Assembly: GCF_023015765.1 (NCBI RefSeq)
Contig: NZ_JALKAL010000001.1
Span: forward strand, 1-47,476
Direction of reading: 5' to 3'
DNA length: 47,476 nucleotides
DNA from: Ornithinimicrobium sp. F0845
GTDB taxonomy: Bacteria > Actinomycetota > Actinomycetes > Actinomycetales > Dermatophilaceae
The position numbers and the translations under genes were made by a program. How positions within the stretch are numbered: position 1 is the stretch's first letter; each line of letters begins with the position of its first letter. The notes under the pieces were generated by a model that did not search any database, was not told where the DNA came from, and worked only from the letters and a program-made list of their open reading frames with translations. Positions 25,375 through 43,856 of this stretch are shown here, piece by piece.

Positions 25375-27014
25375 TCAGGTTCGAGGACGTCTCGGTGACC
25401 TACCGCGGCGCCGCGCGGCCCGCGCTGCGCGATGTCGACCTGGTGCTGCCCGAGGGGGAGCTGGTGCTCGTCGTCGGCCGCACCGGCGCCGGCAAGTCGA
25501 CCCTGCTGCGCGCCATCAACGGGCTCGTGCCGCACTTCACCGGCGGCCACCTCGAGGGCCGCGTCACCGTCAACGGCCTGGACACCCGCGACCACCCGCC
25601 CCGCGACCTCGCGCACGTCGTCGGCATGGTCGGACAGGACCCGCTCGCCGGTTTCGTGACCGACACGGTGGAGGAGGAGCTGGCCTACGGCATGGAGCAG
25701 CTGGCCGTCCCGCCGCAGGTCATGCGCAAGCGCGTGGAGGAGACCCTCGACCTGCTGGGCATCGCCGAGCTGCGCTCGCGCCCGCTGCGGACCCTGTCCG
25801 GCGGCCAGCAGCAGCGCGTCGCGATCGGGTCGGTGCTGACCATGGGCCCGCGCGTGCTCGTGCTCGACGAGCCCACCTCGGCTCTTGACCCGACCGCCGC
25901 CGAGGACGCCCTGGCCGCGATCACCCGCCTGGTGCACGATCTGGGGGTCACCGTGGTCGTCGCCGAGCACCGCATGGAGCGGGTCGTGCAGTATGCCGAT
26001 CGCCTCGTCCTCCTCCCCGGTGACGGCATCGTGGTGTCGGGTGATCCGGCGACGGTGCTCGCTCACTCGCCGGTCGCGCCGCCCGTGGTCGAGCTGGGCC
26101 GCGAGGCCGGGTGGTCGCCGCTGCCGCTGTCGGTCCGCGACGCGCGCCGCCGCGCCACTGCCCTGCGCGCCGAGCTGGTGGTGGCCGCGGGTGGGGGACG
26201 TGACACTGGTGCACCAGGTGCACCAGTGTCACGTCCCCCCGCAACGGCCCTGACCGCCAGCAAGGTCGTCGTGCGCTACGGGGACGTGGTGGCCGTCCGC
26301 GGCGTCGACCTGACCCTGCAGCACGGCTCGGTCACCGCCCTCATGGGCCGCAACGGCTCGGGCAAGTCCTCGCTGCTGTGGGCGCTGCAGGGCGCCGGGG
26401 CGCGCCAGTCCGGCTCGGTCACCGTGCAGGGCAAGGACCCGGGCAAGCTCCCCGCGCGCGCGGCCCGCGCCCTCGTCGGCCTGGTGCCGCAGTCGGCCTC
26501 GGACCTGCTCTACCTGGAGACGGTCGACGCCGAGTGTGCCGCCGCCGACCTGGAGTCCGGCAGCCCGACGGGTGCGTGCCGCGCGCTGCTGGACCGGATC
26601 GCACCCGGCATCGACGGGGACCGGCACCCGCGCGACCTGTCCGAGGGGCAGCGGCTGTCCCTCGTGCTCGCGGTCCAGCTGATCGCAGCGCCCGAGGTAC
26701 TCATGCTGGACGAGCCGACCCGGGGCCTGGACTACCGCGCCAAGGAGGAGCTGGCGCGGATCGTTGCCGAGCTCGCCGAGGCCGGCAAGGCCGTGGTCAT
26801 CGCCACCCACGACGTCGAGTTCGTCGCCGGCGCGGCCGGCCGGGTCGCCGTGATGGCCGAGGGTGAGATCGTCGCCGACGGCGACGCCGCCGCGGTGATC
26901 GGCGCCTCCCCGATGTTCGCGCCCCAGGTGGCCAAGGTCCTCGGTGCCCCGTGGCTCACCGTCGCCCAGGTGCGGGCGGCGCGTGACGGCATACTGCAGG
27001 AGAGCCGGCCGTGA
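25371..27014 (+). CDS. ECF transporter ATPase, two ABC domains fused, with in-frame palindromic insert
   Basis: 547 residues containing two ATP-binding domains equivalent to EcfA and EcfA'. Domain 1: Walker A GRTGAGKST (35-43), signature LSGGQQQR (near 142), Walker B VLVLDEPTSALD. Domain 2: Walker A GRNGSGKSS (near 325), an altered signature LSEGQRLS, and Walker B VLMLDEPTRGLD. They power uptake through the T component. The linker at about residues 275-290 (GGGRDTGAPGAPVSRPP) is encoded by a near-perfect palindrome (26193-26239) that also occurs at two other sites in the window, so the linker contains a mobile-like repeat. The start overlaps the T-component stop. Confidence 0.93.
   Translation: MIRFEDVSVTYRGAARPALRDVDLVLPEGELVLVVGRTGAGKSTLLRAINGLVPHFTGGHLEGRVTVNGLDTRDHPPRDLAHVVGMVGQDPLAGFVTDTVEEELAYGMEQLAVPPQVMRKRVEETLDLLGIAELRSRPLRTLSGGQQQRVAIGSVLTMGPRVLVLDEPTSALDPTAAEDALAAITRLVHDLGVTVVVAEHRMERVVQYADRLVLLPGDGIVVSGDPATVLAHSPVAPPVVELGREAGWSPLPLSVRDARRRATALRAELVVAAGGGRDTGAPGAPVSRPPATALTASKVVVRYGDVVAVRGVDLTLQHGSVTALMGRNGSGKSSLLWALQGAGARQSGSVTVQGKDPGKLPARAARALVGLVPQSASDLLYLETVDAECAAADLESGSPTGACRALLDRIAPGIDGDRHPRDLSEGQRLSLVLAVQLIAAPEVLMLDEPTRGLDYRAKEELARIVAELAEAGKAVVIATHDVEFVAGAAGRVAVMAEGEIVADGDAAAVIGASPMFAPQVAKVLGAPWLTVAQVRAARDGILQESRP
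26193..26239. repeat. Palindromic element copy 1, in frame inside the ECF ATPase gene
   Basis: Two 23-nt arms (26193-26215 and 26217-26239) are perfect reverse complements with one base between them; they include GGACGTGACACTGGTG. The whole 47-nt unit is read in frame as the linker between the two ABC domains. The same ends recur at 27879-27952 and 43657-43850. This copy has no internal 29-bp unit and is the minimal form. Confidence 0.95.
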
Positions 27015-28045
27015 GCGTCCTGGCCCTCAGGGGCCGCGCCCAGCGCTACCACCCGCCGCGCAGCGAGGCCATCCGCCTCAGACGCCGGTCCGGCCTGGCC
27101 ATCACCCTGGTGTCGCTGGCGGGGCTGGCGATGTTCGTCTGGCCGCTGTGGATCCCCGCCAGCCCCTCGGTCGTGCAGCACACCACCGACGCGCCGTTCC
27201 TCTTCATGGCCGTGCTGCCCTGCCTGATCCTGGTCGTCCTCGCCGAGGCCAGCGAGGGTGGCATGGACGCCAAGGCCCTGGCGATCCTCGGCGTCCTCTC
27301 CGCGGTCAACGCAGCGCTGCGACCGCTCGGGGCCGGCGTCGGCGGTCTCGAGCTCGTCTTCTTCGTGCTGGTGCTGGCCGGTCGGGTGTTCGGGCCCGGC
27401 TTCGGCTTCGTCCTGGGCTGCACCTCGATGTTCGCCTCCGCGCTGCTCACCGCCGGGGTCGGGCCGTGGCTGCCGTTCCAGATGCTGTGCGCGGCGTGGA
27501 TCGGGCTGGGCGCCGGGCTGCTCCCGCGGCGGGTCACCGGCAGGGCCGAGATCGCGATGCTCGCGGCGTATGGCGTGCTCGTCGCCTATCTCTTCGGCGC
27601 CCTGATGAACATGTGGTTCTGGCCGTTCGTCACCGGCGTCTCGGTCCCCGGCGCGGAGGGCTCCCTGGCCTATGTGGCCGGTGCCCCCGTGCTGGAGAAC
27701 CTGCACCGCTTCCTGGTGTTCACCCTGTTCACCTCGACGCTCGGCTGGGACACCCTGCGGGCCGTCACCAACGCGCTGCTCATCGTGATCCTTGGCCCGG
27801 CCCTCCTGGCGACGCTGCGCCGGGCGAGCAGACGGGCGTCGTTCGGGGTGCGCGGGACCTTTGGGAGCCGTGCTGTGCGGGGACGTGACACTGGTGCGCC
27901 ACACGCACCGGCCGAAACTCTGGAGCGCCAGGTGCACCAGTGTCACGTCCCCCCGCAGGGGCGGGTGGGCAGGCCGGTGTCAGCGGGGGACGGGGTCGAA
28001 AGCCCGGCGTCCGCCGCGGACGAGCCACTCGGCTCGGCGACCTAG
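27011..28045 (+). CDS. ECF transporter S component, probably cobalamin-related substrate
   Basis: 344 residues from a GTG overlapping the previous stop, with AGGAG 9 nt upstream. Six or so membrane helices occupy residues about 30-265 (SGLAITLVSLAGLAMFVWPLWI, LPCLILVVLAEASEGG, FVLVLAGRVFGPGFGFVLG, and others), the substrate-binding module of an ECF importer. The upstream B12 riboswitch suggests cobalamin or a precursor as ligand; this is inference from regulation. Residues beyond about 275 look like non-conserved sequence. They comprise a short dispersed repeat (near 27836) and a palindromic element (27879-27952) read as RGRDTGAPHAPAETLE. The C-terminal tail is therefore probably an addition to a normal 270-residue protein. 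A truncated second copy of this gene's 3' part is at 32431-32606. Confidence 0.85.
   Translation: MSVLALRGRAQRYHPPRSEAIRLRRRSGLAITLVSLAGLAMFVWPLWIPASPSVVQHTTDAPFLFMAVLPCLILVVLAEASEGGMDAKALAILGVLSAVNAALRPLGAGVGGLELVFFVLVLAGRVFGPGFGFVLGCTSMFASALLTAGVGPWLPFQMLCAAWIGLGAGLLPRRVTGRAEIAMLAAYGVLVAYLFGALMNMWFWPFVTGVSVPGAEGSLAYVAGAPVLENLHRFLVFTLFTSTLGWDTLRAVTNALLIVILGPALLATLRRASRRASFGVRGTFGSRAVRGRDTGAPHAPAETLERQVHQCHVPPQGRVGRPVSAGDGVESPASAADEPLGSAT
27879..27952. repeat. Palindromic element copy 2, inside the 3' end of the S-component gene
   Basis: The 19-nt arms 27879-27897 and 27934-27952 are perfect reverse complements (GGGGACGTGACACTGGTGC). The loop of 36 nt contains one ~29-nt unit beginning CTGGTGCGCCACACGC plus a partial unit. 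It is the one-unit form of the element at 26193 and 43657. It is read in frame, adding about 25 residues to the S component. Confidence 0.93.
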
Positions 28046-28126
28046 CAAAGTCCGTCGGCGGCTCCGTGCGGCCGCGGACGACCTCTACTCTCGCCTCGCA
28101 CCACTCGAGCCCGCCCGTGCCCCGCG

Positions 28127-29186
28127 TCACCCGACCTTGGCGACCGCCGCGGCCAGCTGCGGCTCGATGCCCTCAACAGCGAGTGCGATGGACTCCGGAG
28201 TCCCGGCCGCCAGGGCAACGTTGATCTCGTCGGTCTCCTCAAGGATGATCGCGCGGCCGTCCGAGGTCACGTCCAGGGAGTTGAGTGTCGCATCGCCCGT
28301 CAGCTCCTCCAGCGGCATGCCGATCGTGGTCAGCACCGCGACGTCGGCTTCGAAGGCTGTGACCTGCTCGGCCGCGACGGCGGCGAAGAAGCCACCCGGA
28401 GTGGCGAGCTCGGCCAGGGCCGGGTTCTGCACGAGGCCCAGCTCACCGAAGACGTCGAAGCGGGCGTCCCCGGCCACGTAGCCTCCGTAGGCGTCGCCGA
28501 ACTTCACGCCGTACACGAAGGTCGTCCCCTCGAAGTCGGGGTTGGCCTCAGCGGTCTCGCTGAGGACCTGATCGGTCTCGGCGATGGCCGCTGCGGCCTC
28601 CTCGTCCTTGCCGATCGCCTGGCCGATGATCTCGGTCTGGGTGCGCCAGTCGACCGCGAAGTCGGGGGCGTCCTCCGGGGCCGTGGCGACCGGGGCGATC
28701 TGCGAGAGCCGGTCGAAGACCTTGTCGTCGCTGGCGGCCCGCACGTTGAGGATCAGGTCGGGTTCAAGCAGCTCGATCTGCTCGTAGTTGTAACCCGTCC
28801 CCGTGTTCTGGATGACCGTGACCTCGGTGTCCCCCACCGAGTCCGTCGCCCACGGGCCCACCCCGTGGTTCTCCTCACCGTGCCCCTGCCAGTCGTAGAT
28901 CCCCACCGGCGTCAGGCCCAGCGACGCCGCGATCTCCCCGTCGGACCAGCCGAGGGCCACGACCTTGAAGGTGTCGCCGGCCTGGGTGACGTCCGTGGTG
29001 GGGCCGCGGTCGACCGTGCCGATGACGCCGGACCCGGCGTCGCCCCCGTCGGCGGTGGTGCCACCGTCGGCGCTGGTGCCCTCGTCAGCGGGGTTCGGCT
29101 CGTCCCCGTCGGACGAACCGCACCCGGTGAGGGGCGAGGCCGACGGTCAGGGCGATGGCGGTGATCAGGTGGCGCTGGGTTCGCAT
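28127..29186 (-). pseudogene. Iron-siderophore substrate-binding lipoprotein, frameshifted in the signal peptide
   Basis: The mature protein is intact in one frame (28127 to about 29130). It has an Asp/Gly-rich linker, then FKVVALGWSDGEIAASLGL, YNYEQIELLEPDLILNVRA (the siderophore-binding family's E-x-I-x-x-L-x-PDLI motif) and FGELGLVQNPALAEL. The signal peptide MRTQRHLITAIALTVGLA is encoded in another frame from ATG 29186. The lipobox L-T-G-C with Cys follows in the mature frame. An extra C in the CCCC run (GGGG at 29131-29134 on the plus strand) separates them. With one base removed it reads VGLALTGC. It would capture ferric siderophores outside the membrane. Either a real null mutation or a homopolymer sequencing error. 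Confidence 0.85.
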
Positions 29187-29289
29187 GGCGGCTTCCTTCG
29201 GAGTATGTCGGTGGGCTGGTGTGTCAGCGGGCTGGTTTCGGTGAGCAGGCGGTGGGCGGGGATGCACTTCAGCGGGTAGGGGTGTGGTC

Positions 29290-30158
29290 TCAGGTCGAGG
29301 CGCGTGCGGTGGCGGTGTCGCCGGGCCGGTCGACGCCCACGACCGCGTCCCGGGAGAGCGGGATGACCAGCGGGGTCCCGGACTCCGGGTCGTCCACGAC
29401 ACGGGTGCGCACCCCGAAGACCGCGCGGACCGTCTCCTCGGTCACCACCTCGCGCGGCGTGCCCTCGGCGACGATGGACCCGTTGCGCATGGCGATCAGG
29501 TGGGTGGCGTAGCGCGCGGCCTGGTTGAGGTCGTGCAGGACGGCGACGAGGGTCCGGCCCTCCCGGTTGAGTCGCGAGCACAGGTCGAGCACCTCGAGCT
29601 GGTGCGCCAGGTCGAGGTAGGTCGTGGGCTCGTCGAGCAGCAGGATCGGCGTCTCCTGGGCCAGGGCTGTGGCGATCCACACCCGCTGCCGCTGGCCTCC
29701 GGACAGTTCGTCCACGGGCCGGGTGGACAGCTCGACGAGCTGAGTCGCTTCGAGCGCCCGGCGGACCGCGGCCTCGTCCTTGTCGGTCCACTGGGTGAAC
29801 AACCGCTGGTAGGGGAAGCGGCCCCGGGAGACCAGGTCCACGACCGTGATCCCCTCCGGGGCCAGGGACTGCTGGGGGAGGAGCCCCAGCTCGCGGGCGA
29901 ACTCCTTGCCCCGGTAGGACTGCACGTCCTTGCCGTCCAGCAGCACGCTGCCGGCCGTCGGCTTGAGCAGGCGCGAGAGGCTGCGCAGCAGGGTCGACTT
30001 GCCGCAGGCGTTGGGGCCGACGATCACGGTGAAGGACCCGTCGGGATGGCCACGTCCAGGCCGGAGATCACCCTGCGCGCGTCGTAGCCGACGTCGAGGG
30101 ACTCTCCGTGCAGCCGTGAGGTGTGCGAACGAGGGGGTGGTGCGTCTGTCGCCGTCAC
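29290..30158 (-). pseudogene. Ferric-siderophore ABC transporter ATPase (FecE-type), frameshifted near the N-terminus
   Basis: From GTG 30158 the first ~38 residues (DAPPPRSHTSRLHGESLDVGYDARRV...LDVAIP) lie in one frame. The remainder, from DGSFTVIVGPNACGKSTLLRSLSRLL (Walker A) to LSGGQRQRVWIATAL (signature), ILLLDEPTTYLDLAHQLEVL (Walker B) and VLHDLNQAARYATHLIAM (H-loop), is in a second frame. The break is at about 30043-30046, where one missing base between VAIP and DGSF would restore continuity. The GTG overlaps the preceding permease stop. The domain order is that of FecE/FepC siderophore ATPases. Its effect depends on whether the indel is real. Confidence 0.85.
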
Positions 30159-31255
30159 GCGGCCACCTTTCGGGACTGGGCGATGAGCAGACCGAGCAGA
30201 TAGACGCCACCGAGCGCGGTGGTCACGACGCCGACCGGCAGCTGCACCGGCGCGAGCATCGTGCGGGCGAGGGCGTCGCTGACCACCAGGAGGGTGGCGC
30301 CCACCGCGGCCGTGGTGATGAGGGGGATGCCGGGGCTGCGGGTGATCCGCATGGCCACCTGCGGCGCGACGAGGGCGATGAACGCGATCGGCCCGGCCAC
30401 CGCCGTCGTCACGGCGACCAGCCCGACGCCCACGAGCAGCAGCAGGAACTGGGCCCGCCCGGTGTGCACGCCCCTGCTCTGCGCGGAGTCCTCGCCGAGC
30501 TCGAACATCCGCATGCTCGGGGTCAGCAGGGCCAGCGCAGGCAGGAGGACCACCAGGGAGAGGGCGACGGGGACGACATCGGCGAAGCGCAGCTCCCCGA
30601 AGATGCCCTGACCCCACGCCGCGGCAGTGGCCGCGTTCTCCACCCGTGCCCGCACCAGGAGGAAGCCGTTGAACGCGATGAGCATCGCGCTGATGCCGAT
30701 GCCCACGACGATCAGCCGGGTGCCGTTGATCCCGTCCTTCAAGGCCAGGAGGTAGACCGCGATCCCGGTGGCCAGTCCGCCGATGAGCGCGCCGAAGGTG
30801 GCGCCTCCGTAGCCGAGGCCAAGGACCAGCATCGCGACGAGCGCGCCGGTGTTGGCGCCGCTGGTGAAGCCGATGATGTCCGGGCTGCCCAGCGGGTTGC
30901 GCGTCAGGGTCTGGAAGATCGCGCCGCTGAGCCCGAGCGAGGCGCCGCCGAGGACGGCGACGAGGACCCGCGGCAGCCGTCCCTCCACGACGATGCGCTG
31001 GATGGCCTCGGACTCGGTCCCGGCGAAGGCGCCGGCCACCCGGTCCAGCGGGAGGTTCGCGCCCTCGACGGAGCCGACACCCAGGGACCATACGGAGACG
31101 GCGACCGTCACAAGGGCCAGCAGCCCGGTGATGACCAGGGTGCGCAGGTCGACCTTCAGCCGGGCGCGGCCACCGCCCAGGGCGACGAACCGGGTCCGCC
31201 GCGGCCAGATCGGGCGCTCGACGAGGGTGTCTGGGGCGGCGGTCTCGCTGCTCAC
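30155..31255 (-). CDS. Iron-siderophore ABC transporter permease (FecCD family)
   Basis: 366 residues, the only intact gene of this operon. About ten helices are present. The N-terminus carries a 45-residue charged tail. GRLPRVLVAVLGGASLGLSGAIFQTLTRNPLGSPDIIGFTSGANTG is the FecCD family's most conserved stretch (the N-P-L-x-x-P-D/S motif). VGLVAVTTAVAGPIAFIALVAPQVAMRI is the EAA-like coupling loop. It starts at GTG 31255, overlapping the stop of the first permease. With the first permease it would form the heterodimeric channel for ferric siderophores. Confidence 0.93.
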   Translation of the reverse strand: MSSETAAPDTLVERPIWPRRTRFVALGGGRARLKVDLRTLVITGLLALVTVAVSVWSLGVGSVEGANLPLDRVAGAFAGTESEAIQRIVVEGRLPRVLVAVLGGASLGLSGAIFQTLTRNPLGSPDIIGFTSGANTGALVAMLVLGLGYGGATFGALIGGLATGIAVYLLALKDGINGTRLIVVGIGISAMLIAFNGFLLVRARVENAATAAAWGQGIFGELRFADVVPVALSLVVLLPALALLTPSMRMFELGEDSAQSRGVHTGRAQFLLLLVGVGLVAVTTAVAGPIAFIALVAPQVAMRITRSPGIPLITTAAVGATLLVVSDALARTMLAPVQLPVGVVTTALGGVYLLGLLIAQSRKVAA

Positions 31256-32288
31256 AGCTCCTTCACCCCGCGCGTGCGGACCAGCTGGATGAGGACCGGA
31301 GCGCCGATGAAGGCGGTGATCATGCCGACCGGCAGCTCGGTCTCCAGCGCGACCCGCCCCACGATGTCGGCACCGAGGAAGAGGATCGGCGCAGCCAGTG
31401 CCGATGCCGGGAGGATCCAGCGCTGGTCGGGGCCGACCACGGAGCGGACCGCGTGTGGGATCATCAGGCCCAGGAAGGAGATCGGCCCTATCGCGGCGGT
31501 CCCCGCTCCGCAGAGCAGGGTGAGTGCCACGAAGCCGGCGGTGCGCACCGTGGTCACCGGGACACCGAGGGCGCGGGCCCGGTCGTCACCCAGGGCGAGG
31601 GCGTTGAGATAGCCGGTGAGCGCGAAGGCGATGAGCAGGCCCACCACGATGTAGGGCGCCGTGGTCAGGAAGAGCTCCATCCCGTGGTCCTTCTGGAGCG
31701 ACCCGACCGCCCAGCCACGGATCTTGTCGAACGTCTTGGGGTCGATCATCGTGATGCCGAAGGCCACCCCGGTGAACACGCAGCTCACGGCGACGCCGGT
31801 GAGCACCCCTTTCGCCGGACCGGCACCGCCCCGCCCGCGGGACCCCACGGCATACACGAGGAGTCCGGCCAGGAACGCCCCGCCCATCGCAAAGACCACG
31901 TTGCCGAAGGTCGTGGTGGCACCGAAGGTGGCGAAGCCCACGACCATGGCAAAGTAGGCGCCGGCGTTGACGCCCAGGATCCCGGGGTCGGCGAGCGGGT
32001 TGCGGGTGAGCGCCTGCATCAGCGCACCGGCGACCCCCATCGCCGCCCCGACGCTCAGCCCGAGATAGGTCCGGGGCAGCCGGGTGCTGCGGATGATCTG
32101 GCTGTTGGTCGACCCGTCGTCGTGCCAGAGCGCGGCCCACGTGTCAGAGAGCGGGATGTCCCCGCTGCCGACGAAGACCGAGAGCAGTGCGATGCCGGCC
32201 AGGACCGCGCCATCACCAGGAGCGCGACCGACCGCTGGGCGGTGCGGGACCGCTCGGCGGTGGTGCGTCCAGCGACGACAGCGACCAC
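31252..32288 (-). pseudogene. Iron-siderophore ABC transporter permease (FecCD family), frameshifted near the N-terminus
   Basis: The N-terminal region from GTG 32288 (VAVVAGRTTAERSRTAQRSVALLVMA) and the rest (VLAGIALLSVFVGSGDIPL...LPRTYLGLSVGAAMGVAGALMQALTRNPLADPGILGVNAGAYFAMV) are in different frames. One missing base near 32205-32212 would give LLVMAAVLAGIALLS and restore a full FecCD permease. The conserved NPLADPGILGVNAG is intact. It is the first gene of the operon, with the iron box 37-51 nt upstream of GTG 32288. As with its neighbours, the indel could be real decay or an error. Confidence 0.85.
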
Positions 32289-32324
32289 GGGTAACCTTTC
32301 TTGCCGCGCCGGGTGCGCAGCCAA

Positions 32325-32339
32325 GTTAGGTTACCTAAC
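32325..32339 (-). promoter_or_regulatory. Iron box (DtxR/IdeR-type operator)
   Basis: GTTAGGT-T-ACCTAAC at 32325-32339 is an almost perfect 7-1-7 palindrome matching the DtxR/IdeR core (TTAGGTTAGCCTAACCTAA consensus). It lies just upstream of the siderophore operon, so the operon should be shut off when Fe2+ is sufficient. The regulator itself is not in the window. Confidence 0.85.
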
Positions 32340-32361
32340 CAGACCAACCCATTCTTGGGGT

Positions 32362-32408
32362 AGTTTTGTACGCCTCCCACGTCTTCGTGGGGAAGTTTTG
32401 TACGCCTC
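32362..32408. repeat. 15-bp direct repeat flanking a perfect hairpin
   Basis: AGTTTTGTACGCCTC occurs at 32362-32376 and again at 32394-32408. Between them CCCACG-TCTT-CGTGGG (32376-32391) makes a 6-bp stem with a TCTT loop. The repeats are unusually T-rich for this genome. The arrangement sits at the junction between the siderophore operon and the S-component fragment. It could be a mobile-element footprint, a binding site pair or a small-RNA gene; function unknown. Confidence 0.8.
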
Positions 32409-32430
32409 ACGCCCCGTGGATTGTGCGCTC

Positions 32431-32606
32431 GTGCTGGGGAACCTGCACCGCTTCCTGGTGTTCACCCTGTTCACCTCGACCCCCTCGGCTGGGACATCCT
32501 GCGGGCCGACACCGACGCCATCCTGCTCCTCGCCCCCGCGCTCCTGGCGACACTGCGCCGGGCGAGCCGGCGGGCGTTGTTCGGGGTGCGCGCGACGTTC
32601 GGCGGA
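32431..32606 (+). pseudogene. Truncated duplicate of the 3' end of the ECF S-component gene
   Basis: This stretch matches 27689-27863 almost base for base at first (GTGCTGG-GAACCTGCACC, then CTTCCTGGTGTTCACCCTG), with a 2-nt insertion after CTCGAC and a few codons lost. After the insertion the frame LGWDILRADTDAILLLAPALLATLRRASRRALFGVRATFG matches the S-component helix LGWDTLRAVTNALLI...ALLATLRRASRRASFGVRGTFG. The 5' part of the gene is missing. This remnant of a second or duplicated ECF S gene is open in frame into the downstream FGE gene. Confidence 0.88.
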
Positions 32607-32672
32607 CGGTCCGGACGGCGGGGCGTTCGGACCCAAAGGCGTAGCCCACGCCGCGTCACCTACCGTGGCCTC

Positions 32673-33575
32673 ATGGCCGACGACATGGTGCACATCCAGG
32701 GCGGGACCCTGCTCATGGGGTCCGATGAGTTCTACCCCGACGAGCGACCCGTCCATGAGCGCACCGTGGCGTCCTTCGAGATCGACCGCTACGAGGTCAC
32801 CAACGAGGACTACGCACGCTTCGTCGAGGACACGGGATACTTGACTGTCGCCGAGCGGGAGCTGGACCCGGCCGACTTCCCGGGAGCTGACCCGGCGGAC
32901 CTGGTGCCCGGGGCGATGGTGTTCACGCCCACGCAGGGTCCGGTCGACCTGCGGAACTGGCGCCTGTGGTGGCGCTGGCAACCAGGCGCGTCCTGGTCGC
33001 ACCCTGCCGGCCCCGCCTCCTCGATCGAGGACCGTCTGCTGCACCCGGTCGTGCACGTCGCCTTCGAGGACGTCATGGCCTATGCCGAATGGGCCGGGAA
33101 GCGGCTGCCCACCGAGGAGGAGCACGAGTTTGCCGCGCGCGGGGGCCTCGTCGGTGCACGGTTCGCGTGGGGGCAGGAGATCTATCCCACAGGGAAGGCC
33201 GCGGCCAACACCTGGCTCGGGCGCTTCCCCTACGACAACCAGGGCGTCGGCGACGCAGCACCGGTCGGCTCCTACGAGCCCAACGGCTACGGGCTCTATG
33301 ACATGACCGGCAATGTGTGGGAGTGGACCAGCGACTACTACACGCCCCGGCACCTGCGGCCAGGTGACACACCGGTGGACACTGGCGAGCGGGCCAGCCT
33401 GCTGGCTGCAGCCAGTGCCGAGCAAGGTTTCCCGATACCGCGGCGCGTCCTGAAGGGCGGCTCGCACCTGTGCTCCCCGGACTATTGCCTGCGCTTCCGA
33501 CCGGCCGCGCGCTCGCCCCAGGCCGAGGACACCGGTATGTCGCACATCGGCTTTCGCTGCGCCCGCGACGCCTGA
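32673..33575 (+). CDS. Formylglycine-generating enzyme (sulfatase-modifying factor)
   Basis: 300 residues of the SUMF1/FGE family, which oxidises the Cys of a CxPxR motif to formylglycine to activate sulfatases. Family features are MVHIQGGTLLMGSDEFYPDERPVHERTV at the start, FEIDRYEVTNEDYARFV, VHVAFEDVMAYAEWAGKRLPTEEEHEFAARGG, PNGYGLYDMTGNVWEWTSDYY, and the catalytic GGSHLCSPDYCLRFRPAAR with both Cys (267 and 272). The Cys pair marks it as a true FGE and not a redox-dead homologue. ATG 32673 has no clear ribosome-binding site; the frame is open upstream through the S-component fragment. Its presumed substrate, a Cys-type sulfatase, starts 120 nt downstream. Confidence 0.93.
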   Translation: MADDMVHIQGGTLLMGSDEFYPDERPVHERTVASFEIDRYEVTNEDYARFVEDTGYLTVAERELDPADFPGADPADLVPGAMVFTPTQGPVDLRNWRLWWRWQPGASWSHPAGPASSIEDRLLHPVVHVAFEDVMAYAEWAGKRLPTEEEHEFAARGGLVGARFAWGQEIYPTGKAAANTWLGRFPYDNQGVGDAAPVGSYEPNGYGLYDMTGNVWEWTSDYYTPRHLRPGDTPVDTGERASLLAAASAEQGFPIPRRVLKGGSHLCSPDYCLRFRPAARSPQAEDTGMSHIGFRCARDA

Positions 33576-33584
33576 GCTCGACTC

Positions 33585-33601
33585 TCACCCGTACCGGGTG
33601 A
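33585..33601 (+). terminator. Hairpin between FGE and sulfatase genes
   Basis: TCACCCG (33585-33591), TAC loop, CGGGTGA (33595-33601): a 7-bp perfect stem 10 nt after the FGE stop. It lacks a T-run. It could be a weak terminator or an operator before the sulfatase promoter. Confidence 0.35.
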
Positions 33602-33695
33602 ATTGGCGGGTAGACTAACTCGGCGAATAGCCATAGGCCTGACGCGGCGATAGCTTCGTGAGGACGCTGTCGGTGACACACGGGAGGCCCGCACC

Positions 33696-36017: not shown

Positions 36018-36030
36018 TCCACCAGCCTCG

Positions 36031-36060
36031 GCGTCGTTCGGGGCACGCGGGACGTGTGGA
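36031..36060. repeat. Short dispersed repeat (third copy)
   Basis: GCGTCGTTCGGGG (CA) CGCGGGAC at 36031-36052 is nearly identical to 27836-27857 (where TG replaces CA) and related to 32576-32597. The first two copies are in the 3' end of the S-component gene and its fragment; this one is alone, in the leader of the STAND-like gene. Nothing else in this 195-nt intergenic stretch stands out. Confidence 0.55.
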
Positions 36061-36211
36061 CGACGGCCTGTCAAGGGCTTCCCGTCAGTCGCGCGAGGTT
36101 CCGTCGACGGCCTGACGTGAGGAGCGCGGCGGCATCCTGGCACCGGCTACGATCCGACGGACAAGCGGGCCATCCTCGGAGCGTCGATGACCCGAGACCG
36201 GAGGGTGAGCA

Positions 36212-39200
36212 GTGCATACTGAGACCAGGTCGCTCGAGCCGGTGTTCGTCGGTGAGCACCGCCAGTTGCTCGTTGAAGGGCTCGTGGCCGCCTTCGATCA
36301 GGTCAATGCGAGCAGCCAACCGCTCTGGGTGGCGCTGGAGGCGCCGTCCGGGTGGGGCAAGACCCGGGTCGCCCGAGAGTTCTATGCCCAACTGGCTGCC
36401 CGCCGGCAGCACACCCCTCCCTACTGGCCGCCGACCATACTCGGCAGCCGGCCCGACCTCGCCGTCGACGATGTGTCGGCACGGCGCAAGCGGGTCTACC
36501 CTCACGTCCGCCACGTGCCCAACAGCCTCCCGGCGTACCTCTGGTGGGGGATTGCGGCGTCCGTGCGCAACGGCATCCCCACCTTCGCGCTGGCCGAGGA
36601 CATCGGGCAGCTCGAGGCGCACGCGCCCTACCTTGACGACGCGTGGGCGCGGCTGGCGCGGTGGTCCGAGCGGCACGGTGACTGGTGGCGACAGCCGCTG
36701 TCCGCCGTCGGTCAGGAGACCGTCAGTGAGCTGTCCGGGCGGATCGTCGAGTCGCTCGCCGGGTTCGCCGTCCCCGGGCTCGGACTCGTCGGGACGGCGT
36801 TGGGAGCGTTGAGATCGGCTCGTGCCGATGCGCGGGAGCGGCGCGACCGGCTCAGTGGCGCCGAGGAAATCACGGCGGCCACCTACGACATCGTCGACGA
36901 GGCCTGTGACCTGCTGACCCGGCTCGGGCGACCTGGCCTGCCGGTCGTGCTCTTCGTCGAGGACCTGCATGCCGCCGATGACGTGCTGGCCGAGCTGCTG
37001 GAGCGCTTGGTGGTTTCCGCCGCCGCGGTGCTCATCGTGACGACGGCCTGGCCAGGTCACGTGGCGGGCCGGCCACGGGTCCTCGCAGCGCTGGCGCGTG
37101 ATCCCTCGCGCGTCATCCGTGTCGATCACGAGACGACGGCTGCCGCGGCGCCCTTCCCCCCTGGCGCCTCCCTCGGGCCGCTTGGCACGGCGGAGCTCGG
37201 GGCGATCATCCGGCACTACTATCCCGCGGCCGAGGCTGCCACGGTGGGCATGCTCGTCGAGCGGTATCGCAACCCACTGGCGATCGAGTTGTTCTGTCTC
37301 CTCGACCGCTACCGCACGCGCTTTGCGGCCGGCGACCTACGGCTGCCACGCAGTGAGGTGGACCGACTGCCCGAGACCGTGCGCGACCTCTATCGCCACC
37401 TGTGGCGCGAGCTTCCCGAGGCCTCTCGGCGCGGGCTCACCCTGGCCGGCCTGGCGATCCCCACGAACAGGGGTGGCGCACTGCTGGCCGATCCCGTGTG
37501 GCACAACCCGCTCGTCCTCGAGGCCGTGGCCGTCCTCGGCACGGGCGCTGCGTCCGAGGAGGTCAGCGCAGCGCTGACGTCGTCACCAGCCACGAGGGCG
37601 TGGGCGCGGCCTCTCGGAGCAAGCCTGCGCCAGTTCCACGAGGACGACCAGTGGCGGGTCGCGGTGGCTGACGACGAGTTCTTCTGGGAGTCCGATCGTG
37701 ACGCCTTCCTCACCGCGCTCGCCGAGGCGCTGACGGCGGCGACCGAGCACGCCCGGTGGGATACACCCGAGGACCGTGCCCATGCCGCCCAGCTCGCAAT
37801 CGGCCTCCGCGGACGTGGGCTGCTGGCCGACGATGCCCTGGCCAGGGCGGTGCAGGGGGCCGTCGATGACCTCTGGGCGAGCCCACGTGAGCTGCCCTCC
37901 ATCGTGCGTCTCACGGCTGCGGCTCTGGAGCACCTGGACGCCACCGCCCCGGCGGCGCTGGTCCTCCGTCGTGCCCACGCCTGCGCCCGCGACGACCTCG
38001 GTGAGCACCGGGACGCCGCTGATCTGCTCCACACCCTGCTGGCCGACTGTGCGCACGTGCACGGGGAGAGCCACCCGACAACGCTCAACGTGCGCAACCG
38101 TCTGGCGAACGCCACCCGGTCCGCTGGGCGGCCCGAGGAGGCGCTGCTCATCTATCAGGGAAACCTGACCGACCAGCTTCGGGTGCTCGGCGAGGACCAT
38201 CGCGCCGTGCGCACCACCCGGAACAACCTGGCCAACGCCTACCTCGAGGTCGGTCGTGTCGACGACGCCTTGCCATTGCTCGAGGACGCGGTCGAAGCAT
38301 CGACGCGCGCTGACGGACCACTCGATGTGTACACGCTCCAACTGCGCAACAACCTCGCCGCCGCCTACGGCCGCGCGGGCCGCGACGAGGACGAGCTCAC
38401 TCTGCTCGAGGCCACCGTCGATGACATGACAGTGGGGCTCGGCGCCAAACACCCCTCCCTGCTCAACGCACGCCTCAACCTCGCGAGCGCGTATGGCGAT
38501 CGTGATCAGGTCGGCGTCGCGATCCGGCGGCTGGAGGAGCTCGTCCCCGATCTTGAGCAATTTCTCGGTGACCGGCATCCCACCACCTTCAAGGCACGCA
38601 ACGTGCTCGGCGGGATGTATCGAGCGGACGACCGCGTCGAGGAGGCACTCGATCTGCACTCCCGGTTGTATGACGCCACGGTGGAGACCTTCGGGCTGGA
38701 GCACCCGCTGGCGGCGGTCATGCTGAACGACCTCGCGATCACCCAGTTCACCGCCGGTGATCACGACCAGGCTCTCGCACTCTTCGAGCGGTGCCTTGAC
38801 GATCGGCGTAAACTGCTCGGCACCGATCATCCGGACAGCCTCACCACGGAGTCCAACCTGGCGCGCACGCTGATCGCCATGGGACACACCGAGAGGGCCC
38901 TCGGTCTCCTCGAGCCCCTGCTGACCCGCATGGCTGCGGTCCACGGCCCCGACTCCTCGCGGCTGCTGGACCTACGCGAGCACGCCGCACTCGCCTACGA
39001 CAGCGCCGGACGCGCGGACGACGCACGGCGGCAGGCGGCCGAGCTGGTCAGGGCCCGCGCACGCGTGCAGGGCGCGCTCCATCCCGACACCGTCGTCGCC
39101 CTCGACTGGCTGCTAAACCATCTCGTCGCCGGCTCCGATCTCGAGGAGCTCGTGAGCTGGCGCGCCTGGCATGTCGAGCGGGTCGGGGAGGCGTATGGCG

Positions 39201-39805
39201 TCACAGCCCGGGAGACGATCACCGCGCGCCAGGAGCTTGCCTACGCGCACCAGCTCGCCGGTGCTCAGGAGGAGGCGACAGCCTATGCCGAGCAGACCCT
39301 CGCCCTGTGCCTCGACGCACTCGGGGCCGACGACGAGCAGACCCTGGTCAGTCGCAATCTCCTGGCCAACACCCTTTTCGGAGCGCAGCAGTATGCGCGC
39401 GCCGGTGCTCTCTACGCCCTCAATCTCGAGGAGTGGCGGCGGGTGGCCGGTGAAGATGCGTCGGGAACGCTCGCAGCCATGCACAACCTGGCGCTCTGCC
39501 GTGAGCACGAGGATGACCGGGCTGCCGCACGGCGGGGCTATTCGGCTGCCGCCGAGGGACGAGCCCGGGTGCTCGGCGAGGACGACCCTGACACGCTCGC
39601 CTCGCGCGTGGGCGCCGCATCAGTGCTCGCCGATTCGCGGCAGACGGTCGCCGAGCTTGAGCCAGTGCTCGCCCGCGCTGTCGAGATCCTCGGCTCGACG
39701 CACGAGACGACCCGCTGGGCGCGCCGTCGCCTGATCGCCGCCTACCGCGACCTCGACGAGGACGAACGCGCGACAGCTCTCGAGACGGCTGATGCCGGGT
39801 CGTGA
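36212..39805 (+). CDS. STAND-like P-loop NTPase with TPR repeats
   Basis: 1197 residues. The P-loop APSGWGKTR (44-52) and a Walker B-like VVLFVEDLHAADD (near 244-256, with the D/E-D-x-H-x-A-x-D found in many STAND/AfsR-like AAA domains) form an N-terminal NTPase of about 350 residues. A helical segment follows (350-580). From about 590 to the end there is a long array of TPR-like helical hairpins with kinesin-light-chain-type consensus (for example HPTTLNVRNRLANA, HPDSLTTESNLARTLIAMG, TLVSRNLLANTL). Such NTPase-TPR proteins act as ligand-sensing switches, and some defend against phages. No effector domain is obvious at either end. The start is GTG 36212 with GGAGG 7 nt upstream. Confidence 0.85.
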   Translation: MHTETRSLEPVFVGEHRQLLVEGLVAAFDQVNASSQPLWVALEAPSGWGKTRVAREFYAQLAARRQHTPPYWPPTILGSRPDLAVDDVSARRKRVYPHVRHVPNSLPAYLWWGIAASVRNGIPTFALAEDIGQLEAHAPYLDDAWARLARWSERHGDWWRQPLSAVGQETVSELSGRIVESLAGFAVPGLGLVGTALGALRSARADARERRDRLSGAEEITAATYDIVDEACDLLTRLGRPGLPVVLFVEDLHAADDVLAELLERLVVSAAAVLIVTTAWPGHVAGRPRVLAALARDPSRVIRVDHETTAAAAPFPPGASLGPLGTAELGAIIRHYYPAAEAATVGMLVERYRNPLAIELFCLLDRYRTRFAAGDLRLPRSEVDRLPETVRDLYRHLWRELPEASRRGLTLAGLAIPTNRGGALLADPVWHNPLVLEAVAVLGTGAASEEVSAALTSSPATRAWARPLGASLRQFHEDDQWRVAVADDEFFWESDRDAFLTALAEALTAATEHARWDTPEDRAHAAQLAIGLRGRGLLADDALARAVQGAVDDLWASPRELPSIVRLTAAALEHLDATAPAALVLRRAHACARDDLGEHRDAADLLHTLLADCAHVHGESHPTTLNVRNRLANATRSAGRPEEALLIYQGNLTDQLRVLGEDHRAVRTTRNNLANAYLEVGRVDDALPLLEDAVEASTRADGPLDVYTLQLRNNLAAAYGRAGRDEDELTLLEATVDDMTVGLGAKHPSLLNARLNLASAYGDRDQVGVAIRRLEELVPDLEQFLGDRHPTTFKARNVLGGMYRADDRVEEALDLHSRLYDATVETFGLEHPLAAVMLNDLAITQFTAGDHDQALALFERCLDDRRKLLGTDHPDSLTTESNLARTLIAMGHTERALGLLEPLLTRMAAVHGPDSSRLLDLREHAALAYDSAGRADDARRQAAELVRARARVQGALHPDTVVALDWLLNHLVAGSDLEELVSWRAWHVERVGEAYGVTARETITARQELAYAHQLAGAQEEATAYAEQTLALCLDALGADDEQTLVSRNLLANTLFGAQQYARAGALYALNLEEWRRVAGEDASGTLAAMHNLALCREHEDDRAAARRGYSAAAEGRARVLGEDDPDTLASRVGAASVLADSRQTVAELEPVLARAVEILGSTHETTRWARRRLIAAYRDLDEDERATALETADAGS

Positions 39806-39862
39806 GGGCCGATCAGTCTCGTGCGAGGCGTGGGCGCTGCCAACAACGTCGTCTCGTGAGGG

Positions 39863-40738
39863 CTACTTAGACTGGTTGGCGAGCACCTCGTGCAGCCGCA
39901 CCGCGAACGCCTTCGCCTGGCCGGGCCACGGGTCGTTCTCGCCGGCGAAGCCGCCGTGGTGGCTCGGGAACTCCACCGCCTCCTGGCCGAGCAGGGCGGC
40001 GACTGACTTGGCTGCACGACCCATCATCACGTCCGCCGACTCCTCGCCGTGCGCCAGCACGATGCGGGTGGGTGCGGCCTGCAGGGCGGCCACGTCGGGG
40101 CGGTAGGAGGTGATCGCCTCGGACCGGTCGGACATCAGCGGGTCGTCGCGCGACCCGTCGTCCTCGGTCGGCAGCCCGAACTGTGCCGGGTCGGGCGCGG
40201 GCTGGGCGAAGTAGGCATCGGTGAACTCGCCCTGCCACGAGCTCATCGCTATGAAGCCCGCCATGCCGGCGCCCCACCCCCTGTCCCGGTAGGCCTGCTG
40301 GAACGCCACCGTCGCGCGCCGGGTGGCCTCCGCGTCGGGCAGGACGTCGACCAGCGGCGGCTCGTGCGCCACGAGGGTCCGCACGTCGTCGGAGTATGCC
40401 GTCACGAGCGCGAGCGCTGTCACCGCGCCCCCGCTGCTGGCAAAGAGGTCGACGGGGCCGCCGACGGCCTCGATCACGGCGTGCACGTCGCCGCCCTGGA
40501 TCTCGGGGTCGTTGCCGACCTGACCGTCGGACCTGGTGCTCCGCCCCATGCCCCGAGGGTCGTAGGTGACGACCGTGCGGTCGGGGAACTCGGCCGCCAG
40601 TGCGGCGAAGCCGCTGGCGTCCATCGGCTGGCCGATCATCAGCAGCGGCGGCTGACCGTCCGCGGTCGGGAGCGGGCCGTGCACGTCATACGTGACCTCA
40701 GCCCCGTCGGTGGCAATGGTGTGCGTCGTTGTCGTCAT
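39863..40738 (-). CDS. Alpha/beta hydrolase
   Basis: 291 residues. After a short N-terminal segment (THTIATDGAEVTYDVHG), LLMIGQPMDASGF holds the oxyanion region. VVTYDPRGMGRSTRS is the conserved post-strand loop. DLFASSGGAVTALAL has the nucleophile Ser in an S-x-S-G-G elbow. APTRIVLAHGEESAD and FPSHHGGFAGEND likely carry the catalytic Asp/Glu and His. Substrate unknown; the pattern fits esterases or haloperoxidase-type hydrolases. It is divergent from the sigma factor gene. Confidence 0.9.
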   Translation of the reverse strand: MTTTTHTIATDGAEVTYDVHGPLPTADGQPPLLMIGQPMDASGFAALAAEFPDRTVVTYDPRGMGRSTRSDGQVGNDPEIQGGDVHAVIEAVGGPVDLFASSGGAVTALALVTAYSDDVRTLVAHEPPLVDVLPDAEATRRATVAFQQAYRDRGWGAGMAGFIAMSSWQGEFTDAYFAQPAPDPAQFGLPTEDDGSRDDPLMSDRSEAITSYRPDVAALQAAPTRIVLAHGEESADVMMGRAAKSVAALLGQEAVEFPSHHGGFAGENDPWPGQAKAFAVRLHEVLANQSK

Positions 40739-40773
40739 GATCTGTCGACCCTACGGACCATCGGAACTCATCG

Positions 40774-40789
40774 CCCCCAGAATTGGGGG
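40774..40789. promoter_or_regulatory. Hairpin in the divergent promoter region of the hydrolase and sigma factor
   Basis: CCCCCA (40774-40779) and TGGGGG (40784-40789) form a 6-bp inverted repeat around GAAT, midway between the two divergent start codons (40738 and 40823). It could be an operator shared by both genes; unproven. Confidence 0.35.
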
Positions 40790-40822
40790 GAACCAGAATC
40801 CCGTCAGAAGGGTGTAGTTGAC

Positions 40823-41317
40823 ATGGGACTGGACCCGGACGTTGGCCTGGCCGACTACTACCCGCTGGCGTTCCGGCGACTCGTCGGGACGCTGCGGGTG
40901 ATGGGTGTGCCCGGCGCCGACGCGAGCGAGGTCGCGCAGGAGGCGTTCGTCCGGCTGATCCCGCGATGGGACCAGATCCGCACCTACGACAGCCCGGACG
41001 GGTGGCTCCGCACCGTCGCGTGGCGGATCTGGCTCAACCGCCGCCGCAAGGACCGTCGCACGTTGGTCCTTGACGACCTGCCCGAGCCGCCGCACCCGGA
41101 GGGCGTGAGCGACACCGAGCGGCTCAGCCTGCTGCAGGCGCTCAAGGACCTGCCGGCGGGTCACCGCGAGGTCGTCGTCCTGCACTACCTGCACGACCTG
41201 CCCGTCGCGCGCATCGCCACCGAGCTCGACGTCGCCCAGGGTACGGTCAAGTCCCGCCTCTCCCGCGCCAGGTCCACCCTGGCCGCCGCACTCACCCTGG
41301 AGGTCGACGATGTCTGA
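40823..41317 (+). CDS. ECF-type RNA polymerase sigma factor
   Basis: 164 residues from ATG 40823. Region 2 reads ADASEVAQEAFVRLIPRWDQIRTYDSPDGWLRTVAWRIWLNRRRK, including the core-binding and -10-contacting helices. Region 4 reads LLQALKDLPAGHREVVVLHYLHDLPVARIATELDVAQGTVKSRLSRARSTL, with the helix-turn-helix that contacts the -35 box. This is the compact sigma-70 ECF design. A longer open frame upstream has no ribosome-binding site and overlaps the divergent gene. The next gene overlaps its stop by 8 nt and is a candidate membrane regulator. Confidence 0.93.
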   Translation: MGLDPDVGLADYYPLAFRRLVGTLRVMGVPGADASEVAQEAFVRLIPRWDQIRTYDSPDGWLRTVAWRIWLNRRRKDRRTLVLDDLPEPPHPEGVSDTERLSLLQALKDLPAGHREVVVLHYLHDLPVARIATELDVAQGTVKSRLSRARSTLAAALTLEVDDV

Positions 41318-42356
41318 GCGCGACCACATCCCTGAGCCGGTTCACGAGGCCAGGCTGGCCACGCTCCTGCGGGAGGAGGCCGCCCGGGCGAGCGACGGCA
41401 TACTGCCTCCGCCGCTGGAGGAACTCCAGAGCCGAGGCATCTCCCGGCGTCGGCGTCCGTGGCTGGTCGGCGCAGCAGCCCTTGCCGCGGCCGCGGTGAT
41501 CGGTGCCGTCGTCTGGGCGAACCTGCCCTCCACCGACGGGCAGGTCGGTCCGGCCGGCGAGTTCGTGCCACCCGCCGACGGTCCGATCGCCGACACGTTC
41601 GAGGTGCCCACCTTCGACTGGGACGAGTCCGGCGGCGACGGGGCGCTGGTCGCCGGAGCCCTCGCGTTCACCGACGCCGGCTGCCCGTTGCTGGTCTTCG
41701 GGGAGAGCGCGACCCCGCTGTTCTTCCCGAACGCGACCGGGGTCACGTACGACAACGGGGTGCGGGGGGTCGTCGACGCGCAGGGTCGTGTCTACGCCAC
41801 CGAGGGGCAGCCGATGGAGTATGCCGGGGGCTGGGCCGAGCCGATGACCGGCGAGCTCGCGCAGGCCTGGGACAGCCTGTGCGCTGACACCCCGGCGCGG
41901 GACGCGGTGTACGTCAACGACATCGCCGCGATCGATCCGCTGGCAGAGTCTCCCGAGGTGCCGGGCGACTTGCCCACGGTGCCCACCACCCGGGAGGAGG
42001 CCGGCTGGTTCGACGTGCCGACCTACGCCTTCGACCCGGACGGCCCGCGCGAGGACGCGCTGATCGAGGGCACGGTGGAGTTCACCGACGAGGGCTGCCC
42101 CGTCGTGGAGACGGACGGGGTGCGGACGGGGCTGATCTTCCCCAACGCCGAGGGCTTCCAGGCGCCCGGCACCGACGACCCACGCCTGGTCTACTCCGTC
42201 TTTGGGGACGGCTCCTCGGCGGCCATGGCCCAGGAGGGTGAGCCGGTCTCCTGGGGCGGTGGCGGTGGGCCGGCCGACGACGAGCGCTGGACGTCGGTGT
42301 GTCAGGAGTCCCCGGTCGACGCGGTCTTCATCGTCCAGGACACGCCCTTCGACTGA
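41310..42356 (+). CDS. Membrane protein with two duplicated extracellular domains, candidate anti-sigma factor
   Basis: 348 residues. The N-terminal 50 residues are cytosolic and acidic/basic (EARLATLLREEAARASDGIL), followed by one membrane segment (about 51-71). Two related extracellular domains of about 110 residues follow (96-205 and 233-345). Each starts with a F(E/D)VPT motif, has a GCP (Cys125, Cys263) and ends in LC/VC (Cys191, Cys331), suggesting a disulfide in each. The gene overlaps the sigma factor by 8 nt, and GGAGG precedes ATG 41310. This is the position and topology of an anti-sigma factor, although the cytosolic part has no recognised anti-sigma motif. Confidence 0.7.
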   Translation: MSERDHIPEPVHEARLATLLREEAARASDGILPPPLEELQSRGISRRRRPWLVGAAALAAAAVIGAVVWANLPSTDGQVGPAGEFVPPADGPIADTFEVPTFDWDESGGDGALVAGALAFTDAGCPLLVFGESATPLFFPNATGVTYDNGVRGVVDAQGRVYATEGQPMEYAGGWAEPMTGELAQAWDSLCADTPARDAVYVNDIAAIDPLAESPEVPGDLPTVPTTREEAGWFDVPTYAFDPDGPREDALIEGTVEFTDEGCPVVETDGVRTGLIFPNAEGFQAPGTDDPRLVYSVFGDGSSAAMAQEGEPVSWGGGGGPADDERWTSVCQESPVDAVFIVQDTPFD

Positions 42357-42404
42357 CCGCGACCCGCTGGGGGCTGCGACACTCTCCCTGAGAGAGGGGG
42401 CGGC

Positions 42405-43601
42405 ATGGAGGACGTCGTCGTCATCGGTGCGGGCATCGTGGGTCTGGCCACCGCCCGGGCGCTGCTGCGCGCCCGCCCCGGCCTGTCCGTGACCGTCCTC
42501 GACAAGGCGGACGACGTCGCCACCGCCCAGACCGGTCACAACTCGGGCGTCATCCACGCCGGCATCTACTACGCCCCCGGCTCGCTCAAGGCGAGGCTGT
42601 GCCGCGCGGGGGAGGCTGCGACGAAGGCCTTCTGCGACGAGCACGGCATCTCGTATGCCGTGCCCGGCAAGTTGGTCGTCGCCACCGAAGAGCCCGAGGT
42701 CGTGCGGCTGCGCGCGCTGGGCGAGCGGGCGGCGCAGAACGGGATCGAGCTCGAGTCGGTCGACGGGGCCAGGCTGCGTGCGCTGGAGCCGAACGTCCGG
42801 GGCCTGGAGGCGCTGCTGTCCCCGGCGACCGGGATCGTGGACTTCCGCGAGGTCGCCCGCGCCATGGCTGCCGAACTGGTGGCGTCGGGTGTGCGGGTCG
42901 TCACCCGGGCGGCCGTGCGGTCCATCGCCGAGGACGGCACGGGCGTGCACCTGGAGTCCGACACCGGGGAGTTGCGAGCCCGCGCGCTGGTCGCCTGCGC
43001 CGGACTGCAGGCCGACCGGGTCGCCCGGATGGGCGGGCTCGACGTGAGGTTCCGGATCGTGCCCTTCCGCGGGGAGTACTACCAGCTGCCCGCCGCCAAG
43101 AACGATCTCGTGACGCGGCTCATCTATCCGGTGCCCGACCCGGAGCTGCCCTTCCTCGGGGTGCACCTCTCGCCCACGATCGACGGCCGCGTGACGGTCG
43201 GCCCCAACGCGGTCCTCGGCCTGTCCCGGGAGGGCTATCCCAGGGGAGCTGTCCGCCTGCGGGACGTGGCGTCATACTCGCTGTTCCCGGGGATGTGGCG
43301 GTTCGGGCGAGGCAACCTGCGGACCGGGCTGTCGGAGGCGCGCGACTCGGTCTTCCGGTCGGGCTACCTGCGGCAGGTGCAGAAGTACGCCCCGTCGCTC
43401 ACGGTCGAGGACCTGCTGCCCTATCCGGCCGGGATCCGTGCGCAGGCGATCACTCGCACCGGGCGGCCCGTGGAGGACTTCCTGCTGCGGCACACCGCCC
43501 GCCAGGTCCACGTGTGCAACGCACCCTCCCCGGCGGCGACTTCGGCGATCCCGATCGGCGAGCGGGTCGGTCGGTCCGTCCTGGGTGTGCTCGACCGGTG
43601 A
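42405..43601 (+). CDS. lhgO: L-2-hydroxyglutarate oxidase
   Basis: 398 residues of the DAO superfamily. VVVIGAGIVGLATARALL (FAD dinucleotide motif) is near residues 4-21, and QTGHNSGVIHAGIYYAPGSLKARLCRAGEAA is the hallmark of LhgO. VVPFRGEYYQLP-type and PVPDPELPFLGVHL segments and a VCNAPSPAATSAIPIGERV C-terminus match the family. It oxidises L-2-hydroxyglutarate to 2-oxoglutarate, feeding electrons to the respiratory chain. The G-rich tract GAGAGGGGGCGGC precedes the ATG. It ends next to the expanded palindromic element, 55 nt downstream. Confidence 0.9.
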   Translation: MEDVVVIGAGIVGLATARALLRARPGLSVTVLDKADDVATAQTGHNSGVIHAGIYYAPGSLKARLCRAGEAATKAFCDEHGISYAVPGKLVVATEEPEVVRLRALGERAAQNGIELESVDGARLRALEPNVRGLEALLSPATGIVDFREVARAMAAELVASGVRVVTRAAVRSIAEDGTGVHLESDTGELRARALVACAGLQADRVARMGGLDVRFRIVPFRGEYYQLPAAKNDLVTRLIYPVPDPELPFLGVHLSPTIDGRVTVGPNAVLGLSREGYPRGAVRLRDVASYSLFPGMWRFGRGNLRTGLSEARDSVFRSGYLRQVQKYAPSLTVEDLLPYPAGIRAQAITRTGRPVEDFLLRHTARQVHVCNAPSPAATSAIPIGERVGRSVLGVLDR

Positions 43602-43656
43602 GCGGGCCGGAGGCTCGCGGCGGAGGTGACCCCAGCGGTGGGCGTCAGGCAGGGTC

Positions 43657-43850
43657 CTCGGAGACGTGACACTGGTGCACGACACGCACCAGTCCAGGGC
43701 TGGTGCACGCCACGCGCCAGGCCAAAACCTGGTGCACGCCACGCGCCGGCCCAAGACCTGGTGCACGCCACGCACCAGCCCAAGACCTGGTGCATGACAG
43801 ACGCCAGCCCGGGGCTGGTGCATCAGGGACACCAATGTCACGTCTCCGAG
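43657..43850. repeat. Palindromic element copy 3 with expanded internal ~29-bp array
   Basis: The ends 43657-43677 and 43830-43850 are reverse complements at 20 of 21 bases (CTCGGAGACGTGACACTGG...). Between them a ~29-bp unit with consensus start CTGGTGCACGCCACGC recurs five times (starts 43672, 43700, 43729, 43758, 43787; lengths 28-29) plus a partial sixth at 43815. It is the same element as 26193-26239 and 27879-27952 with its core amplified. It lies between two convergent genes. Confidence 0.93.
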
Positions 43851-43856
43851 AGGTGG

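Follow-up and report, generated by a model that had tools for sequence, protein, structure and literature searches.

Among the dispersed palindromic repeats of bacteria, REP/BIME sequences with their RAYT transposases are often extragenic, Rickettsia palindromic elements are read in frame within protein genes, and BOX-type repeats are known best from streptococci and are debated there as either parasites or sequences useful at gene ends. The pneumococcal BOX element (boxA-boxBn-boxC) is built of two end modules with a tandem array of variable length between them, has strong secondary structure, is enriched between convergent genes, sometimes supplies a stop codon, and has been reported with target-site duplications; its authors read it as selfish and without host function (PMC3049150). 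Here we describe a family of palindromic elements of which three members (copies 1, 2, and 3) lie in a stretch of 47,476 nt from Ornithinimicrobium sp. F0845 (GCF_023015765.1, contig NZ_JALKAL010000001.1, positions 1-47,476), the whole of which is referred to as the window. The initial annotation of the window had concluded that these elements do not fit standard MITE, REP, or CRISPR descriptions and had overlooked BOX, their closest known counterpart; the view that they fit no known description could not be upheld, since BOX has the same architecture.

BOX elements of Streptococcus pneumoniae and Streptococcus suis share with the present family the end modules flanking a variable array, strong secondary structure, size variation at the same site, occurrence in few species only, enrichment between convergent genes, open frames through the element, and stop codons supplied by it (PMC3049150). 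Unlike in BOX, both ends are here the same sequence in inverted orientation and the internal unit reuses the inner arm of the end, while the host is a high-GC organism of another phylum and no target-site duplication was found. The family appears to work like BOX, the likeness being one of architecture and position that was compared by description without sequence alignment. SPRITE repeats of S. pneumoniae are likewise terminator-like palindromes enriched near the 3′ ends of convergent genes, but they are non-modular and consist of a single stem with a T-rich tract (PMC3049150). The present family differs from the Rickettsia elements in having only a minority of its copies within genes and a countable array as its core, and from REP/BIME in its build and in that its host has no Y1 transposase. 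Palindromic repeats of fungal mitochondria are also present or absent between related genomes and proposed to be mobile, but they are organellar, belong to an unrelated host, and were likened by description only (PMC7218506). On balance, we lean towards reading the family as a BOX-like, non-autonomous dispersed repeat, as far as known unrelated to BOX in sequence, whose number of internal units (n) changes in place and which is tolerated and most likely serves as a bidirectional terminator and/or 3′-end stabiliser. With its self-similar, countable build and its high-GC actinobacterial host genus, the family offers an independent comparative test of the parasite-or-useful question, to which the presence of other repeat families at these gene ends in sister species also contributes, and it may be a source of new bidirectional terminator parts.

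The host and its relatives were searched for the end sequence, as the initial annotation had proposed, and a dispersed family was found, with 52 paired copies characterised in 9 of 31 genus genomes, 14 of them in the host. When left and right ends were paired over the 287 kb of loci that had been fetched, 53 hits resulted, compared with none when the sequence was reversed; a spurious finder hit at window position 28817 was dropped. Since the loci were chosen for their end matches, the 52 copies are no census; truncated or unpaired copies (e.g., G000 C23:205431, G024 C481, G017 C2:191) were left uncounted, and copies were examined one by one in these 9 genomes only. In the host genome (4.2 Mb, 59 contigs) the 13-mer end pattern CGTGACAYYGGTG had 27 exact matches compared with 1 for the reversed pattern, and across the 31 genus genomes the excess of end matches was clear in G000, G002, G006, G007, G017, G018, and G024 and slight in the others. 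A strict zero-unit pattern with exact ends was detected in 4 of 186 genomes of the taxonomic family, all from the same genus (1 of 53 genera), although its lack of matches outside the genus carries less weight than it seems to, as the same pattern overlooks 5 of the 9 genomes in which elements are known. GTDB contigs scanned for exact zero- and one-unit forms, a scan that may omit near relatives, returned a single metagenome-assembled genome, Actinomycetales bacterium AS06rmzACSIP_198 (G024). Within the searches made, the family is confined to one actinobacterial genus. Four element loci searched against Rfam 15 at E-values up to 0.5 returned nothing except one tRNA, and searches of the open PMC library yielded no account of this repeat family; of 40 papers there that contain one of four 12-mers, the 10 listed were unrelated to judge by their titles. 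A viral origin was rejected, as the two IMG/VR hits proved on inspection by eye to be different GTGACACTG/GTGACATTG repeats. On two viral contigs (L065, L066) these repeats are clustered in direct and inverted orientation, iteron-like and unrelated to the family described here.

Palindromic ends around a variable internal array, as recognised in the initial annotation, were found over all 52 copies. The end sequence GGRGACGTGACAYYGGTG is present in both arms, and the arm consensus over 104 arms reads GGRGA, CGTGACA, Y, Y, GGTG, with GGRGA conserved although it lies outside the search pattern. The element boundary over the 52 copies was placed at GGRGA/CGTGACA, flank complementarity being at background from the sixth base outward. 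The ACGTGACA arms are almost invariant. Terminal inverted repeats and a tight fold are both present, as in miniature inverted-repeat transposable elements (MITEs). Set against the AT-richness of MITEs relative to the genome, the elements are lower in G+C content (0.643) than the loci (0.710), but they are still GC-rich. Element lengths are quantised in steps of about 29-30 nt, the size of one internal mini-hairpin unit, of which an element has 0 to 8: 17 copies have n = 0, and n = 1 to 8 is represented by 6, 6, 9, 8, 3, 1, 1, and 1 copies, respectively. The best length period was 29.0, and none of 2000 random length sets was equally periodic. The unit indeed reuses the inner arm of the element, and its composition can now be given more precisely as inner arm, loop, inner arm, and spacer, so that n units give n+1 mini-hairpins (TGGTGC-loop-GCACCA, with short spacers between them) within a single outer stem, the n = 0 element being a single hairpin. 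In the proposed mechanism, the two like, inverted end modules would close this outer stem around the mini-hairpins.

The 52 copies fall into 9 linked groups and 23 singletons, with several links depending on one flank; one linked group from seven genomes spans two loci joined via a common helix-turn-helix (HTH) neighbour gene, which gives 32 independent sites, or 33 if this group is split. The number of units differs between species in 7 of the 9 linked groups (e.g., 0 vs. 4, 1 vs. 4, 6 vs. 3 vs. 2), and at the site of copy 2 it is 1, 1, 2, 3, and 4. Unit identity was 0.81 within an array, 0.67 between arrays of one genome, and 0.63 between genomes. Because n differs at linked sites and units are more alike within than between arrays, we conclude that arrays change in place. 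The earlier proposal that the element grows by amplifying its internal repeat is borne out to this extent, but not in its direction: zero-unit copies hold no spacer to amplify and may therefore equally be collapsed arrays. The simplest route by which n (0-8) would change is slippage or unequal recombination.

Genes were called with a simple caller based on G+C at third codon positions (GC3), which missed some genes; in the position and convergence counts, tRNA genes were ignored, and at least two copies that lie within genes (window 26199 and G000 C56:45928) were scored as intergenic. Of the 49 elements outside called genes, 39 had a facing gene 3′ end no more than 110 nt away, compared with 36.7% of random intergenic points, as did 28 of the 32 independent sites (p = 4e-9), whereas 7 of the 49 lay near a facing 5′ end compared with 47.2% of random points. 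A facing stop codon was located within 80 nt of 38 of the 52 elements, and in 6 copies at 5 sites the stop codon of the neighbouring gene is the TGA of the element's own CGTGACA. At inner pairs, G.U outnumbered A.C on the sense strand in 27 elements (39 vs. 10), compared with 25 vs. 24 in the remaining 25. None of the 104 flanks contained TTTT; this absence of a U-tract carries little weight, since TTTT occurred in only 2 of 2000 random windows. Hairpin clusters near stop codons act as terminators, and a section heading of the same source states that poly-U is not necessary (PMC8355165). We infer the RNA role of the family from the position of its elements: copies persist chiefly a short way beyond the 3′ ends of genes, and the hairpins transcribed there would most likely be bidirectional terminators and/or 3′-end stabilisers.

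Comparison of orthologous loci, proposed at the outset as a check, revealed both occupied and empty sites but not the target-site duplication that had been looked for with them. G000 (C56:45.9 kb) and G006 carry an element inside an aminotransferase gene (identified by PF00155 in G006), whereas the nine aligned relatives G002, G005, G007, G009, G010, G018, G022, G027, and G001 lack it at the same site. The search covered 13 genomes; there was no match in G017 or G024, and G011, whose match was split into two pieces, was left out of the alignment. The distance between the same anchors is 80 nt in G000, 41 nt in G002 and G007, and 38 nt in G005, so that the reading frame is kept (a gain of 39 nt over G002); in the host, the element does not interrupt the open frame, and G006 has extra sequence on one side. 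The site of copy 2 is occupied in four relatives (G002, G005, G017, and, displaced by about 80 nt, G007). As judged by eye, the site of copy 1 holds another repeat family in four relatives (G005, G007, G017, G024), and a site occupied in G007 and G017 holds another repeat family in G024 and G000, a third in G006 and G010, and none visible in G002 and G005.

Several of our results weigh against the reading of the family as mobile, BOX-like repeats that act at gene ends. As regards action at gene ends, the two types of inner arm mix, so no clean compensatory change can be recognised; the enrichment in convergent context is modest on its own (21 of 49 elements vs. 21 of 85 gaps, one-sided p = 0.024); counted per element, the RNA-strand bias is mixed, with p = 0.0055 by sign-flip and 0.095 by sign test; and the fold-energy strand test gave p = 0.04, or 0.068 once ortholog duplicates were removed, the trend being reversed in the 13 elements located between two facing genes. 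As regards movement, which would depend on an enzyme acting in trans, no target-site duplication was detected (best z 2.31 over 64 combinations of offset and length, without excess of exact duplications), no autonomous element with the same ends was found (no end pair 0.6-4 kb apart, using 11-mer matches in 5 genomes), and the Y1 (RAYT) transposase model PF01797 had no match in the host while being positive in 5 of 14 control genomes. Intergenic sites are not clean, the whole spacer differing between species, and since G006 is not the nearest relative, either loss or repeated use of the aminotransferase-gene site must be assumed.

The same observations bear on the alternatives. That the elements are purely selfish parasites of the BOX/MITE type, for which gene ends merely tolerate insertion and which have no host function, would agree with the almost invariant arms resembling enzyme recognition, with in-frame copies in at least three host genes, with the restricted distribution, and with the BOX authors' own reading (PMC3049150); given that neither a duplication nor a partner was found and that in sister species these gene ends are taken by other hairpin or tandem-repeat families, which suggests that hairpins are useful there, we regard it as somewhat unlikely. 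The lack of target-site duplications and the exchange of whole spacers instead of clean insertions would be expected if terminator modules of the host had been copied from one gene end to another through recombination or gene conversion and had never transposed, but the discrete in-frame gain within the aminotransferase gene and the conservation of the end sequence beyond pairing needs speak against such copying, and we consider it unlikely. A more speculative and rather doubtful reading is that gene 3′ ends in this genus form a niche colonised in turn by several unrelated families of tandem mini-hairpin arrays, with units of about 29-32 nt, which would supplant each other at a given gene end from species to species and act as interchangeable terminators, the present family being kept by an arm-recognising HTH protein that has an element upstream of its own gene. 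Finally, chance or a single ancient local duplication in the window has practically no probability left: its only support is that copies 1 and 2 lie 1.7 kb apart, and the number of copies in the host and across the genus refutes it. Nor did the local spread which the initial annotation had deduced from this distance find support, as flank sharing is not distinctive; the 10-nt outward flank shared by copies 1 and 2 ranks second among 364 host arm pairs, and the longest (11 nt) joins different contigs.

A role of the elements as operator arrays, the arms of which would be bound by an XRE-like HTH protein, is suggested by the genes beside some of them. Seven genomes have an element in front of a small gene for the same XRE-like HTH protein, at two loci, namely in the tRNA-Gly(CCC)/dcd region (G000, G002, G006, G007, G017; in G000 a membrane-protein frame intervenes and the locus was assigned by its tRNA-Gly) and after adenosine deaminase (G011, G018). 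The element core ends 80-138 nt before the HTH start codon in the four genomes with an assigned start. A DnaA-box-like TCCACAG (TTCACAG in G002) follows the element, ahead of the HTH gene, in all seven cases, compared with TCCACAG in 2 of 90 other element flanks, and the tRNA-Gly locus is without the HTH gene in G009, G010, G011, G018, and G022, while the G005 stretches examined did not include dcd. Nevertheless, we think it quite improbable that the family consists of operators: the HTH profile similarity is weak and below curated cut-offs, the host copy of the gene is frameshifted, the loci were reached through the elements and hence give no view of HTH genes without elements, and the remaining sites are at 3′ ends and not at promoters. 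The structure model of the HTH protein had a mean predicted local distance difference test (pLDDT) score of 48.6 and was confident only around residues 41-80, and a search for plasmid-borne relatives gave no match at an E-value of 0.01.

Direct inspection of the sequence confirmed the positions initially reported for all three window elements, as well as the in-frame location of copies 1 and 2 in ECF transporter genes and the convergent flanks of copy 3. With the boundary set over the 52 copies, the elements extend over 26194-26238, 27879-27952, and 43660-43847. The sequence GACGTGACACTGGTG had five exact occurrences and one with a single mismatch at element ends in the window; with up to 3 mismatches there were 9 window matches against 2.74 expected, a number reached in none of 100 shuffles. 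Copy 1 is a zero-unit element forming a near-perfect single hairpin, in frame in the linker that joins the two ATPase domains of an ECF-type ATPase (25371-27014, forward strand; two ABC_tran stretches, PF00005). Copy 2, with one unit, falls in the part of the ECF S component gene (27011-28045, forward strand; PF12822 with an E-value of 7.7e-8, and PF07155) that corresponds to the C-terminal tail, where the frame is open across it, and the gene that follows is convergent. Copy 3, with five units, has an outer stem enclosing six mini-hairpins and lies between an FAD-dependent oxidoreductase gene ending 5′ of it (42405-43601, forward strand; PF01266) and an aminotransferase gene ending on its other side (43950-45110, reverse strand; PF00155). 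Within copy 3, Tandem Repeats Finder reported an array on the forward strand at 43672-43810 with a 29-nt unit in 4.8 copies. The fold z-scores were -9.4 for copy 1, -8.5 for copy 2, and -10.5 and -10.7 for copy 3 on its two strands. Adjoining copy 3, a third tandem repeat with a period of 38-40 and about 3 copies was observed at 43850-43983.

Other repeats were also noticed in these genomes. A second tandem-repeat family has units of about 32 nt starting with (G/C)ACCGAGCGC and was seen at loci L178-L187 and L144 and in the ATPase linker of L069, L072, L073, and L075. Its 13-mer matches numbered 32 in G000, 89 in G024, 60 in G007, 22 in G005, 9 in G006, 11 in G018, and 18 in G010, with 1-5 in the reversed control. 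Several of its arrays follow stop codons in the sense orientation, and in L179 arrays stand head to head between convergent genes. By eye, another repeat type with AAACCGCTA(T/C)GAAAAT-like units (L207, L208, L036) was recognised at a gene end in G006 and, in degenerate form, in G010, and also next to an end of the main family in G024. At the C34:28.6 kb site, the relatives G018 and G011 have unrelated plain hairpins instead (L151, L152; by eye).

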